Below are positions 6,546-12,871 of a stretch of 46,649 nucleotides of DNA, in pieces. The stretch is from Pseudomonadota bacterium. Lineage in GTDB: Bacteria; Desulfobacterota; Desulfobacteria; Desulfobacterales; Desulfobacteraceae. The position numbers and the translations under genes are program-made. The notes beneath the pieces are model-generated. The model ran no database searches. It saw only the letters and a program-made list of their open reading frames with translations, and was not told the origin of the DNA. The stretch covers positions 1 through 46,649 of the forward strand of contig JAHJLN010000430.1 in NCBI GenBank assembly GCA_018821715.1, read 5' to 3'. Every line of letters begins with the position of its first letter. Positions within the stretch are counted from its first letter, which is position 1.

Positions 6546-7844
6546 TTAATCCGGCAGCAGATCATAAAAATACATCATAGCATCTGACCGGGTAATGATG
6601 CCGATGATCTTATCATCTTTCATCACCGGGATACGTCCGATATCGTGTTTCATCATTAATCTTGCAGCTTCTATGGCACTCCTGTTATGGTCGATGGTCA
6701 CGACATTCCTGCTCATGAATGCCTTAATAGGCGATTGCATGTGATTTGACCTTCTGACTTTCTTAAAATCCCTCCTTGAAATCACCCCTACGATATGGTC
6801 ATCTTTATCGACAACCGGCATACCTGTACATCCCATGTCTCTTAAAATCATGACCACCTCTTCTACCTTTGTATCCTCACTGACAGTGACCACAGGATAG
6901 GACATGATATCTGACAATAAAACAGACGAATGCTGATTTCCAGAAATGAGTTCAATCAGCATTTCTTCAATTACATCCGGGTTTACCGCTTTTAACAGAG
7001 CTGACCCGGCCCCTGGGTGTCCACCCCCGCCAACACTTCTCATTAAAAGGCCGATGTTGATTTCATCGACATTGCTTCTGCCGATAACCATGCACTTGTT
7101 TCGTTCAACATCTCTGAAAATTCCAAAGGCAGCGTCCACATTAACAATTTCCCGGTACATCTGAAGAACCATGGCAAGATTCTGAATTCGTCCCTCGACC
7201 TCCATTTTGGAAATACTGATGGAAAACCCGGATAATTCCAATCTTTGGGCTTTCTGTATCATATCAAAGAGGATATCTTTTTGTTTTTTCCCATAGGCCT
7301 GGCGTAAAAAGGTGGAAAGAATATACAGGTCAGCTTTTCTGTCAAGAAGGAACCCTGCGGCATGTGCATCTTCCGATAAAGTTGAGGGAAATGTAAGGTT
7401 GCCTGTATCTTCATACAGTCCTATCAAAAAAAGCGTCGCCTGTATGGGGGTGATCAGCTTTCTTTGTTTTTCAATCTCCTGTACCAGCATGGTAACGGTT
7501 GCCCCGGTTTCTTTGATATTTTTCTGATCGGTTTCAATATCACCTTCGCTATGATGATCCCATATAATAATTTCAAGATCTTTTTTATCTTTCAACGCAT
7601 CCATGTCTTCCAGGCGGTTCCATGAATGGGTGTCAACAACAACAAGTGTATTCACATGCTCATAGGTAATGTCTTTAGGGGAATAAAAATCAAACAAGTC
7701 TTTATGAATGGATAAAAAAGCCTTTAAATTTGCATTAATTGATGTCGGCAAAACAGGTTTGGCACCAGGGTAAAGCAAGGTTGCCGCAACCAGTGATGCC
7801 AGTGCGTCAAAATCCGATCCTTTATGGGTGGTAACAATAATCAT
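6546..7844 (-). CDS. DHH/DHHA1 phosphoesterase with two CBS domains
   Basis: 432 residues. The N-terminal DHH domain shows THKGSDFDALASL, VVDTHSW and IIWDHHSEGD, the metal-binding set of RecJ/NrnA-like phosphoesterases. DHHA1 shows SVGGGGHPGAGSA. Two CBS repeats follow (SYPVVTVSEDTKVEEV and SRNVVTIDHNRSAIEA), which normally bind adenine nucleotides. This DHH-CBS-CBS order matches the front half of long deltaproteobacterial A-adding tRNA nucleotidyltransferases, but the nucleotidyltransferase half is absent and the protein stops after the second CBS domain. Likely substrates are small phosphodiesters or nanoRNA. I chose the ATG at 7844, preceded by GATGAGG at correct spacing, over a TTG 45 bases upstream. 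It is convergent with oleC. Confidence 0.8.
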   Translation of the reverse strand: MIIVTTHKGSDFDALASLVAATLLYPGAKPVLPTSINANLKAFLSIHKDLFDFYSPKDITYEHVNTLVVVDTHSWNRLEDMDALKDKKDLEIIIWDHHSEGDIETDQKNIKETGATVTMLVQEIEKQRKLITPIQATLFLIGLYEDTGNLTFPSTLSEDAHAAGFLLDRKADLYILSTFLRQAYGKKQKDILFDMIQKAQRLELSGFSISISKMEVEGRIQNLAMVLQMYREIVNVDAAFGIFRDVERNKCMVIGRSNVDEINIGLLMRSVGGGGHPGAGSALLKAVNPDVIEEMLIELISGNQHSSVLLSDIMSYPVVTVSEDTKVEEVVMILRDMGCTGMPVVDKDDHIVGVISRRDFKKVRRSNHMQSPIKAFMSRNVVTIDHNRSAIEAARLMMKHDIGRIPVMKDDKIIGIITRSDAMMYFYDLLPD

Positions 7845-7993
7845 GTGTGCCTCATCTTTATGGATATCCTTTTGATGAACCGTATTCAAGATTTGTATTC
7901 AATCCTCAATCACAATCCTTTTTTGAACATTATCATAATGAGCATCTATCCAAAAGATGTTTTTTAAAAGAAAACCTGCAATAACAAATATTC

Positions 7994-8306: not shown

Positions 8307-8753
8307 CTACAAGATTTCTTCCCTCAGCAGGTCCACCACCAAGCAGTACGCTGTGCTGACCGCCGGAAAGCAGACTGTCTGGGGGATATCAGAACTCATA
8401 AACAGCTCGATCCCCTCCGGTGTGGTCAGATCTGCCCCCGTCAATTCGCGGCAGTTGATGGTCTCCATCTCGGCTTCGAAGCGGCGGCGAAACTCCTGAA
8501 CCACCGCCAAAGTGTGGAACGATTTCTCCATGGTATCACCCCGCTCTTTCTTGAAGCCGATAGCCATCACAGCACCGGCGACAGCACCGCAGACACCCCC
8601 GGTGTTGCCGATCCCGCCGGCAAAGCCGAAGGCGATTCTAGGGATGATTTCATTATCAACTTTTAGTTCAAATTCCTGGCACACGGCCAGGAGTACGGCC
8701 TCTGCTCAAACGTAACCTTGCATTAATAATTTAGCAGCACGGTTTGTCTCCAT
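8307..8753 (-). CDS. C_GCAxxG_C_C family selenoprotein (Sec at residue 16, encoded by in-frame UGA)
   Basis: The ATG at 8753 is preceded by a near-perfect GGAGG (8 bases upstream). The frame reads METNRAAKLLMQGYV, then UGA (8708-8706), then AEAVLLAVCQEF and on to residue 148. The C_GCAxxG_C_C redox family has GYxCAxAVL at exactly this place, so UGA replaces the first motif cysteine. The remaining motif cysteines are present: GGVCGAVAGA (Cys55), INCREL (Cys101), and Cys128 and Cys137. A 7-bp hairpin with G in the apical loop begins 14 bases after the UGA, as expected of a bacterial SECIS. Ordinary ORF calling starts at an internal GTG (8684) and loses the active residue. The role is a putative redox protein, partner unknown. 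It lies 130 bases after hydA on the same strand. The alternative is a nonsense-mutated pseudogene, which the intact frame and hairpin argue against. Confidence 0.88.
8674..8692 (-). promoter_or_regulatory. SECIS-like hairpin following the selenocysteine UGA
   Basis: On the minus strand the mRNA reads TCCTGGC-CGTGT-GCCAGGA, a perfect 7-bp stem with a 5-base loop. It starts 14 bases after the UGA, and the loop starts 21 bases after it. The loop has G as its second base, which meets the usual bacterial SECIS rule of a G among the first two loop bases 16-37 bases downstream. It is within the coding region, as is normal in bacteria, and would bind SelB. Confidence 0.8.
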
Positions 8754-8882
8754 TATTTTTCCTCCTTTTTTGTTCAGAGGATACAATAATTTGAACAGTT
8801 TTTGAAATAATAAATGCAAATGAAATGGAAAGATACCCTATCCTGCTTCTCCCGGGAAAGAATGATCTATATATTCAATAGT

Positions 8883-10157
8883 TTAATGCACAGAGCAGGA
8901 AATGCACGGGTCATAAGACCTCACAAGCATTTCAGCCAGTTTTGTGATCTGTGTATCGGTTTTTCCTTTTTTTACTTCCTGTTTGACAAGTTCGGCCATG
9001 TCATGGTGGATGTTGGCATGGTTCTGGGTTGTGGGAATAATGCAATTGGCTTTTTCTATTTTGCCCGAATCATTGATGACATAATGATGATAAAGAATGC
9101 CGCGGGGGACTTCCACAGCTGAGATGCCTTGTCCGGATTTTACTGTATATTGCGCGCAGATAGTATCCAATGACATATCAAGCAGTTCATCGATCATTTG
9201 AATTGACTCATTTATGGTGTGCACACATTCCACAAGCCGGGCAATGTGGTTCATGTATGGGTTGTGGTTCACCGGTTTTAGATTGAATTCCTGAGCAATC
9301 TGTTTTGCCGGGGGATTTAGAAATTCATAATTGTTGTTTATTCTTGCAAGGGCGCCCACGGCAATAGATTCACGACTGAGTTTTGCAAATTTACTGGTGG
9401 AAAAATCAACAATATATTCATTGGTCATGGCAAGATAGTCAGTTTCATCCTTTATGATGCCGTCTGTTGATATCAGGCTGCCGCCGATCCAGGGGTAGCT
9501 TTTTTCTCCTTTTAAGGACACAAATTCAGTCTGCCTTTCAAACTCAGGCATTGTAAGGGTTTTGAAAAGCGCTACCGTTTTTTGTGCATCAAAAATTCGA
9601 TCTGATAATGCGGTTTTGATTTTTTCCAGATCTTTCTTTTTTGGGGCTTTGCTCATCCCCCCTACACAAAAGCTTGTGGGATGAGTGGTTCTTCCTGCCA
9701 GAATATCACACATATCATTGGCGCATTTTTTCAGCCGCAGCGCAATTTCCACAATATCCCGGTTTGATGATACCAATGGGATGACACTGCCCACATTAAA
9801 AAAATCAGGGGCTGCAAGGAAAAATAAATGTAAAAAATGACTTTGCAGGGTTTCTCCATGTTTGGCAAGAAGCCTGAGCTTTTTTGCGGTTTCCGGGAGG
9901 TCAATGCCAAATGCATTTTCTGTTGCCCGCAGTGATGCCAATGCATGGCCAATGGAACAGATACCGCAAATTCGTGCGGTTAAAAGATGCGCCATTTCAT
10001 AGGACATGCCTTTGAGCATGACTTCAAAGAATCTTGGGGTTTCAACCACTTCCCATTGAGATTCAACCAGTTTTCCATCTTTTACTTTGATGTGTATATT
10101 CCCATGTCCCTCTGTTCTTGCAATATGATGGACATTGATATTCATATTAACTTTCAT
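8883..10157 (-). CDS. hydA: Group 3b NiFe hydrogenase (sulfhydrogenase) alpha subunit, catalytic large subunit
   Basis: 424 residues. Ni and Fe ligands are seen in the N-terminal ARICGICSIGHA (~60-70) and the C-terminal DPCISCSVH. The protein carries the active site of a cytoplasmic bidirectional hydrogenase that exchanges electrons between H2 and NAD(P)H through the other three subunits. It overlaps hydD by 11 nt; the ATG at 10157 has GAGGT eight bases before it. The reading frame ends directly after the last motif His, so there is no C-terminal peptide for a maturation protease to remove. That is unusual, because the Pyrococcus furiosus enzyme has a short cleaved tail. The last cysteine position is TGC, so this is not a NiFeSe enzyme. 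Last gene of the hydBGDA run. Confidence 0.9.
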   Translation of the reverse strand: MKVNMNINVHHIARTEGHGNIHIKVKDGKLVESQWEVVETPRFFEVMLKGMSYEMAHLLTARICGICSIGHALASLRATENAFGIDLPETAKKLRLLAKHGETLQSHFLHLFFLAAPDFFNVGSVIPLVSSNRDIVEIALRLKKCANDMCDILAGRTTHPTSFCVGGMSKAPKKKDLEKIKTALSDRIFDAQKTVALFKTLTMPEFERQTEFVSLKGEKSYPWIGGSLISTDGIIKDETDYLAMTNEYIVDFSTSKFAKLSRESIAVGALARINNNYEFLNPPAKQIAQEFNLKPVNHNPYMNHIARLVECVHTINESIQMIDELLDMSLDTICAQYTVKSGQGISAVEVPRGILYHHYVINDSGKIEKANCIIPTTQNHANIHHDMAELVKQEVKKGKTDTQITKLAEMLVRSYDPCISCSVH

Positions 10158-10911
10158 TGCTGGTAACCTCTGTGAGCATGTTAAAAAAAGAAGTCTTTTC
10201 CTGTATCTGTTCTAACGTAAACCCGTATTCAATAAGGGTTTGTTTAAGGGCCGGCCAATTGTGTTCTTCAGCCGGTCCCCTGCAACCATAGCAGGGAAGT
10301 TTTCCGCCGGGACAGGGTGCGTTGCAGCCTGCGCGGGTAATCGGCCCCAGACAGATTTTGTTTTCATCCAGGAGACAGTGATTTAAGTTTTGTTTGCATT
10401 CCACACAAACCGGATATTTTTTAAAACTAAAATCAGCACCGGTAATCAGATGCACCACAATGTTTTCAAATTCTTTTTTATTAATGGGGCATCCGGGGAT
10501 TTCAAAGTCAATTTTTACAATCTCTTTGGCACTCTTCACCGGCAGCGTATCTATTTTATGTTTACCATAGACTTCAGTCACTGCATCTTTGGTATCATGG
10601 GTGTTGATAAGACTGTTTACACCGCCGCTGCACGCGCATGTGCCAAGGGAAATGAGAAGTTTGGCATTTTTTCTGATTTTTTTAATTCTGTCTATCTGGT
10701 CCTGACGGGAGATTGCCCCTTCAATAAACGCAATATCATAGTCGTTATTTTTATCAGAAGATATCTCTCTGAAGTTAACAATCTCTACCAAAGATAGAAG
10801 ATCTATTAATGTATCCTCTTTGTTTGTAATCTGAAGCTGGCACCCTTCGCAGCAGGTAAAGTCAAAAAACGCGACTTTTGGTTTTTCAATTTTTATTCCC
10901 AGATACTCCAA
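10147..10911 (-). CDS. hydD: Sulfhydrogenase delta subunit (NiFe hydrogenase small subunit, Fe-S electron relay)
   Basis: 254 residues of the NuoB/hydrogenase small-subunit family. FDFTCCEGCQLQI near the N terminus, SLGTCACSGG (~92) and PGCP (~139) give the proximal-cluster ligands. C-terminal cysteine sets (CVECKQNLNHC, CNAPCPGGKLPCYGCRG) provide further 4Fe-4S clusters, as in the delta subunit of archaeal hydrogenase I. No Tat signal is present, which fits a cytoplasmic enzyme. The start is TTG at 10911, supported by GGAG seven bases upstream; no ATG is available near it. It lies 11 bases after hydG and overlaps hydA. Confidence 0.87.
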   Translation of the reverse strand: MEYLGIKIEKPKVAFFDFTCCEGCQLQITNKEDTLIDLLSLVEIVNFREISSDKNNDYDIAFIEGAISRQDQIDRIKKIRKNAKLLISLGTCACSGGVNSLINTHDTKDAVTEVYGKHKIDTLPVKSAKEIVKIDFEIPGCPINKKEFENIVVHLITGADFSFKKYPVCVECKQNLNHCLLDENKICLGPITRAGCNAPCPGGKLPCYGCRGPAEEHNWPALKQTLIEYGFTLEQIQEKTSFFNMLTEVTSNES

Positions 10912-10922
10912 TTGAATTCTCC

Positions 10923-11831
10923 TTATATGGCTTCTTTTAAATTCATGACTGTCCAGAAATCCATGACCGGGCCGTCTTCACATGTAAAGGTGGAGCCTAC
11001 CATGCATCTGCAGCATTTGCCCATGCCGCAGTGCATCCGTCTTTCAAGGTCTACAAACATCCGGTCCATGGGCACGCCGATTTTATTTAAATGGGAACAG
11101 ACAAATTTGAACATCACCGGGGGGCCGCAAACGATTGCATAGGTGTTAACCGGGTCAATGGTAACCTCTTTAAACAGATCGGTTATCATTCCGGTTTTAT
11201 GCTTCCAGTTTTTATCTGGTTTTTCAACGATGAGATGGATGTCATTGTCGTAAATTTTTGACCACATTTCAAATTGATAATCAAACAGGATATCTTTTGG
11301 CGTTTTTGTGCCATAAAGGATGGTTACATCCTTATACTCAGAGCGGTGTTCATTGATCCAGAATATGGGGGCCCTTAATGGCGCCAGGCCAAGGCCTCCG
11401 GCAATTAACAAAACATTATGGCCGATCATTTTTTTCATAGGGAAATGGGTCCCAAAGGGCCCGCGCAATCCGATTTTTGTGTTAAGTTGCGCTTTATGCA
11501 GCATATGGGTGACTTTTCCTGCTTTTCGAATACAAAGCCCCACATGGCCCTTTCGAGAAGTGGAGCTTGATATTGAAATAGGGACTTCACCAAATCCAGG
11601 GAGTTCCACCATGACAAACTGGCCAGGGAGAAATGAAAAGAGCTTTGCTTCCACCGGATCTGTGATTTGAACGTGAAACAGCTTTACCATTTCCGTAAGC
11701 TGCACAATATTGGTAATCACGGCTTCATATACTTTATCTGTGCGCATCAGTTCAGTGGGCCGGTTAAAGTCAGGCAGTTTTTCCATAAACGGCTGGGTAT
11801 TTATATTATCTTCCGGGATTCTATATGTCAT
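10923..11831 (-). CDS. hydG: Sulfhydrogenase gamma subunit (FAD/NAD(P)-binding, 2Fe-2S)
   Basis: 302 residues resembling ferredoxin-NADP reductase/PyrK-type subunits. An N-terminal FAD-binding barrel ([21 protein letters not shown], shown in part) is followed by a nucleotide-binding domain ([22 protein letters not shown]). A C-terminal cysteine cluster ([17 protein letters not shown]) binds a 2Fe-2S centre. It links the hydrogenase module to NAD(P)H. The start ATG shares one base with the hydB stop (TAATG) and has GGAG ten bases upstream. The arrangement beta-gamma-delta-alpha matches the classical sulfhydrogenase operon. The name hydG here is the gamma subunit, not the radical-SAM maturase of FeFe hydrogenases. 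Confidence 0.87.
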
Positions 11832-12871
11832 TATGCGTTCTCCATCCTTAGATCATGAATCACAGCAACCGGGTATATGTTGGTTGGGCATGCATTTCCG
11901 CAGCGGTTGCAGCCGACACATTTGGGCTCATCATAGCTTTCCACAAACCCCCGGTACTGATGGTAATATCGATATTTAAGCCGGCTCATGGCACTGGGCC
12001 TGAAGTTATGTCCCCCTGCAACTTCTGCAAAGTCTATAAGGTTGCAGGAGTACAAGATTCGTTCTTTTGATGCCAAGTTTAGTGACACATCTATATTCTC
12101 TTTGACTGTGTAACAGTAACAGGTGGGGCAGACCATTGCGCAGCTTCCGCAGCTTAAACATTTGTCCCCCCATTTTTTCCAGACATCTGATTCAAACTCG
12201 ATATCCATAAGGGAGGGCAGGCCGGTTACATCCACTTCGTTTTTATAAAGACTCTCGATTTGTTTCTTTTTTTCAATATATTTTTTCTGATCTTTATCAG
12301 TAACTTCATTTGTTTTAATATTTTTTAAAAGATTAAACGCTTTGGAAGAATTGATTTCCATAAAATATTTATTGCCGATGTCTGTTAAAAAAATATCAAA
12401 TCCATGCAAGGCAACATCGGTTCCCAGAGACTGGGCAAAGCATCCTTTTGGCGGGGCATTATCGATTCCGATGATAAATGTATTTTTTCTGCGCGCCACA
12501 TAATAGGGATAGGGAAATTTGCCTTTCATCAATACCTTGTCAAGTTTCAGCAATCCATTGATATCATAAGGCCTTAATCCGATGATCACACGCGGGTGTA
12601 TGGTGTATTCAATTTTTTGATTCCATGTTCCGTCTTTAAAATGGAATGTGGAAAGGTTTTCTTTAAAAGGGAGAAAAAAATTTTTAACAGATGAATAAGT
12701 AATTGTATAGTCAATGGCCATTTCATTAAAATTGCTGATTTCTTCAAACTGGTAAATGGGCTCTCCTTTGGCGTTTCGATCTGTTTCCACCGGTCCTATG
12801 GTCTGGTTTTCCTTGATTATATTGTTTACAAATTTTTTAAAATTGCTTTTCGTGATGGTTTTAAACAGCAT
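11831..12871 (-). CDS. hydB: Sulfhydrogenase beta subunit (4Fe-4S protein, AsrA/HydB family)
   Basis: 346 residues. Two 4Fe-4S ferredoxin-type motifs occupy the C-terminal third: [17 protein letters not shown] (~238-255) and [17 protein letters not shown] (~317-333). The N-terminal part matches the HydB/anaerobic sulfite reductase A family ([14 protein letters not shown], then a [13 protein letters not shown] segment). First gene of hydBGDA; the ATG at 12871 has GGGAG seven bases before it. The beta subunit wires clusters between the gamma subunit and an external acceptor. It could be mistaken for AsrA, but the following hydrogenase subunits settle the assignment. I found no convincing promoter in the 230 bases upstream. 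Confidence 0.87.

Follow-up and report, generated by a model that had tools for sequence, protein, structure and literature searches.

A C_GCAxxG_C_C family gene with an in-frame UGA, very probably a selenocysteine codon, in a Desulfobacteraceae genome

The locus and its product

The window, that is, the whole stretch of 46,649 nucleotides that was analysed (contig JAHJLN010000430.1 of assembly GCA_018821715.1), carries the following features in and around the gene considered here:

8307..8753, minus strand: putative selenoprotein coding sequence, 148 codons plus TAG stop, from the reading of the frame and profile matches
8706..8708, minus strand: UGA very probably read as selenocysteine (Sec, residue 16), in the first-cysteine column of the C_GCAxxG_C_C family
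8761..8766, minus strand: Shine-Dalgarno sequence AGGAGG, 7 bases 5' of the ATG, from direct reading
8674..8692, minus strand: candidate bacterial SECIS hairpin with a 7-bp stem and the loop CGUGU (8685-8681), in which G is second
8883..12871, minus strand: adjacent operon whose products are akin to NiFe sulfhydrogenase subunits; its end lies 129 bases ahead of the putative selenoprotein's ATG

The gene runs from the ATG at 8753-8751 to the TAG at 8309-8307, and its sole interruption is the TGA at 8708-8706. A preliminary description of this DNA had proposed an in-frame UGA at the first cysteine of the family, a strong Shine-Dalgarno sequence before the real ATG and read-through to the natural end with the other motif cysteines, and all of this was borne out. 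The ribosome-binding motif is found at 8766-8761, and the product matches both family profiles above their curated cut-offs, PF09719 with 89.2 bits (cut-off 27) over residues 14-138 and TIGR01909 with 79.1 bits (cut-off 47.4) over residues 15-137. The UGA residue, number 16, stands at the start of this domain, while Cys55, Cys101 and Cys128 are kept and correspond to the other invariant cysteines of an 11-row alignment.

The mechanical list of open reading frames contains for this gene only a frame of 125 amino acids from GTG 8684, in which the UGA residue is lost, the truncation that had been anticipated from standard gene calling. The presence of this frame would agree with a true start at GTG 8684 and an untranslated part before the TGA, but this is very improbable: the strong Shine-Dalgarno sequence lies ahead of ATG 8753, and residues 1-15 resemble those of relatives, including two cysteine forms that are read through (L025 and L026). 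Since the residues preceding the UGA are conserved, the N-terminal part of the frame from 8753 is most probably translated in frame.

The family itself is known to contain selenoproteins. NCBIfam already gives TIGR01909 the title 'C-GCAxxG-C-C family (seleno)protein', and the family is counted among the prokaryotic selenoproteins in the parts of two reviews that were available (PMC9312934, PMC13188914); it is not named in the available part of PMC2398784. The published lists, as far as given in the available part of PMC13188914, split these proteins into 'form 1' and 'form 2' with one Sec each, and both forms have their Pfam family in common with the window gene (PMC9312934, PMC13188914, both in part). 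The whole TIGR01909/PF09719 domain matches the window protein, and nothing that would change its category sets it apart. Two related families exclude it as a member, the HUGP/GUXX-star fusion selenoprotein NF045501 (partial match of 57.3 bits, far under the cut-off of 325) and the DVU_1555 family C-GCAxxG-C-C protein NF045669 (56 bits over almost the whole protein, cut-off 103). The window gene is a further member of a selenoprotein family that is already listed, so that the result is an annotation correction rather than a discovery, and the understanding of selenoproteins is unchanged by it.

Conservation of the UGA codon and the selenocysteine machinery

Related loci were collected from several sets of genomes. 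Scanning named genome contigs yielded three (L024, labelled Desulfofustis, with TGA at the UGA column; L025 with TGC and L026 with TGT, both labelled Candidatus Bipolaricaulota). Among 389 genomes of the order, matches at E ≤ 1e-30 were found in 5, the own genome included, at six places: TGA is present in the window gene, L057, L058, L059 and L060, with L059 cut off after 138 codons by the end of its contig, and L061 is without it. In a sample of 395 genomes from the phylum, the own genome alone had a match at E ≤ 1e-30. A search of 58 near relatives at E ≤ 0.001 matched 30 of them, the best match outside the own genome having E 9.2e-22 and 37% identity, and some short matches reached 45% identity. 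Altogether the column holds TGA in five orthologues of other assemblies with 54-74% protein identity (L024, L057, L058, L059 and L060) and also in the distant L035. The alignment with cysteine homologues that had been proposed as a check thus places Cys, in L025 and L026, in the UGA column. One further TGA flag, in L031, was dismissed, as the flagged TGA is the stop codon and the motif residue is TGT.

L061 (1501-1905, minus strand) has an open frame lacking a nine-residue stretch that covers the Sec position, and comes from the same assembly as L059. This paralogue may be genuinely Sec-less, may be decaying, or may result from a mixed assembly; as this assembly has 9% estimated contamination, the two loci may stem from different organisms.

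A single base separates TGA from TGC or TGT, and the genome is a draft of 447 contigs, both of which would suit a real nonsense mutation in a pseudogene or a miscalled cysteine codon. The same codon is TGA in the five other assemblies, however, and the sequence on both sides of it stays conserved. Miscalling of TGC or TGT is very unlikely for the former reason, which also puts the UGA above chance, and the nonsense or miscall explanation as a whole has little probability.

The selenocysteine machinery, whose absence would have spoken against the proposal, was found in the own assembly. One tRNA-Sec match exceeds the cut-off (78 bits, cut-off 47), with six weaker matches below it, and there is one SelB (347.2 bits, cut-off 242.25), one SelA (598.6 bits, cut-off 267.9) and two SelD proteins over the cut-off, each with one in-frame TGA in its UxxK motif (UAAK and UASK). 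One formate dehydrogenase FdhA also passes its cut-off, with one in-frame TGA counted. The 14 control genomes behaved as they should, 5 of them passing the same cut-offs for tRNA-Sec, 2 for SelB, 1 for SelA and 2 for SelD. The genes for tRNA-Sec, SelA, SelB and SelD lie on contigs other than that of the window, in an assembly of 5.85% estimated contamination. The presence of two SelD genes (L017 and L018), each with its own in-frame TGA, may reflect duplication or contamination. Two more PF09719 genes in this genome (L022 and L023) both have Cys at the motif.

The candidate SECIS hairpin

The candidate hairpin lies 20 nt 3' of the UGA. A published rule for bacterial SECIS elements, as given in the available part of PMC13188914, asks for a loop of 3-9 nt with G in its first two positions, a spacing of 16-37 nt, an upper stem of 4-16 bp and an MFE ≤ -7.5. 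The hairpin of the window passes this rule as coded, but so do 187 of 600 synonymous recodings, so the rule has little specificity. An equally long stem arises in 250 of 2000 synonymous recodings, and the energy of folding does not stand out (z -0.7 to -1.5 over five stretches). The earlier claim of a hairpin therefore stands as to its existence, the G in its loop and its spacing within the rule, but these z-scores and recodings make it weaker evidence than had been thought, and taken alone the hairpin is not above chance. No pair of its stem was changed on both sides in a compensatory manner, and three of the seven pairs are each broken in one sequence. Rfam at the gathering threshold identified only a tRNA in the window.

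The comparison of Sec and Cys loci gives the hairpin more weight, as the former pass the rule more often. This was the case in 9 of 14 Sec sequences vs 6 of 31 Cys sequences (Fisher p 0.005, uncorrected for relatedness), after 14 of the 69 loci examined had proved to be without a readable motif and 10 identical stretches had been dropped. A narrower motif pattern, which misses some Cys loci, gives 9/14 vs 5/28, and in the smallest comparison the rule is passed by 6 of 7 Sec and none of 3 Cys sequences. The TGA loci that fail the rule as coded are L058, L074, L087, L089 and L090.

Conservation at the codon level was compared between the hairpin codons (U+4..U+12) and the rest of the gene. In six Sec orthologues the fraction of identical codons is 0.81 in the hairpin vs 0.61 elsewhere (permutation p 0.025), and in the window gene (L027), L024 and L060, a trio picked for divergence, it is 0.86 vs 0.46 (p 0.003); a Cys pair shows 0.14 vs 0.39. 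Sec pairs tested singly give p above 0.08 in five of seven cases. Other 9-codon windows of the six-sequence group reach 0.84 at U+46 and U+123 vs at most 0.82 in the hairpin, and the five-sequence group peaks at U+46 (0.96), outside the hairpin. Conservation at synonymous sites thus appears to back the hairpin to a moderate degree.

Sequence alone cannot name the residue that is inserted, and the hairpin is statistically not strong by itself, so that UGA might be read as another residue, such as tryptophan or cysteine, through ordinary suppression. Such a reading is extremely unlikely, given that Cys replaces the UGA residue in homologues and that the genome has the Sec machinery together with other Sec-family genes carrying in-frame TGA. 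Selenocysteine is very probably what the UGA encodes in this 148-residue C_GCAxxG_C_C protein, and SelB and Sec-tRNA would insert it, aided by the hairpin just downstream. What was directly observed, namely the frame, the family membership, the conserved UGA column and the Sec machinery of the assembly, forms the basis of this reading.

Distribution, neighbourhood and possible role

When the 389 genomes of the order were searched with a profile, 106 of them contained matches at E ≤ 1e-15. Loci were made from the best 30 places only, with a profile derived mostly from Sec forms, and the counts of TGA and Cys that follow are for these reasons no census. In 27 readable of the 29 best-scoring loci (L067-L095), the first-cysteine column holds TGA in 12 and Cys in 15, with repeats of earlier loci among both (four of the TGA loci: L068, L069, L070 and L072; four of the Cys loci: L071, L078, L083 and L093). 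The pattern left two loci unread: L067, which repeats L057, and L075, a Cys form. A 24-row tree requires the Sec label to change 3 times, at least 2 of these changes being forced by well supported branches; from this tree and the locus counts it follows that Sec is found at the first-cysteine position repeatedly, in several of the order's subgroups. L087, L089 and L090 form a further Sec subgroup with the motif GxRUAESVLL, and their downstream sequence is among those failing the SECIS rule as coded.

The genes upstream of the putative selenoprotein gene resemble the four sulfhydrogenase subunits, with scores below the equivalog cut-offs. No hydrogenase genes were seen in the lists of flanking open reading frames of L024, L025, L026 and L062-L066, which were inspected by eye over the first 110-150 residues; the stretches span 3-6.5 kb in four cases, and the genes of L024 and L065 border a contig end. 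On this ground a functional link with the sulfhydrogenase-like operon was given up, and the operon is probably not part of the selenoprotein system. On the other side of the gene, the protein of the frame 6546-7889 (minus strand) matches a model for A-adding tRNA nucleotidyltransferase over its first half only (1-427 of 880), and the remainder of the model is without a counterpart in this frame.

The G+C content of the putative selenoprotein gene is 0.544 vs 0.419 for the window. It is likewise well above the surroundings in L057, L058, L059 and L061 (0.61-0.62 vs 0.41-0.45) and moderately so in L024 (0.51 vs 0.44), but not in L060 (0.526 vs 0.561) or L025 (0.612 vs 0.623) and hardly in L026 (0.571 vs 0.544). 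The neighbours differ among the loci of the window, L024, L057, L058, L059 and L061. Raised G+C in six of nine loci, the scattered distribution and the differing neighbours suggest horizontal transfer of the selenoprotein gene as a single gene.

The predicted structure is confident (pLDDT 89.8) and all helical. Foldseek found no match in the PDB at E ≤ 0.001, and the structure therefore provides no functional lead. No assigned reaction was found for the C_GCAxxG_C_C family, which Pfam describes under PF09719 as a 'putative redox-active protein'. Together with the conserved cysteines, this description makes a role in thiol/selenol redox chemistry or electron transfer the most likely reading. 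In a mostly helical protein of this kind, selenocysteine would take the place of the first family cysteine, and Sec16 may be a reactive residue, acting with at least one of Cys55, Cys101 and Cys128.

Split-Soret cytochrome c contains iron-sulfur. The window protein has a weak, non-significant likeness to it around the CGA motif (PDB 1H21, E 0.49), and the match to the split-Soret-like family NF047622 is non-significant as well (E 0.073). A broader proposal, in which Sec16 joins the conserved cysteines as ligands of a metal or iron-sulfur centre and the gene moves alone between lineages, swapping Sec for Cys, is unlikely, its cluster part being drawn solely from this likeness; if true, it would provide a natural selenocysteine-ligated cluster. 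Literature on Sec as an iron-sulfur ligand and on split-Soret cytochrome c, including the available part of PMC8105010, gave no help here.

For annotation, the reading as a selenoprotein corrects a likely gene-calling error that would otherwise cost the protein its Sec residue and its true start. The small set of Sec and Cys forms within one subgroup, plus a copy without the stretch around the Sec position, offers material for asking what selenium adds.
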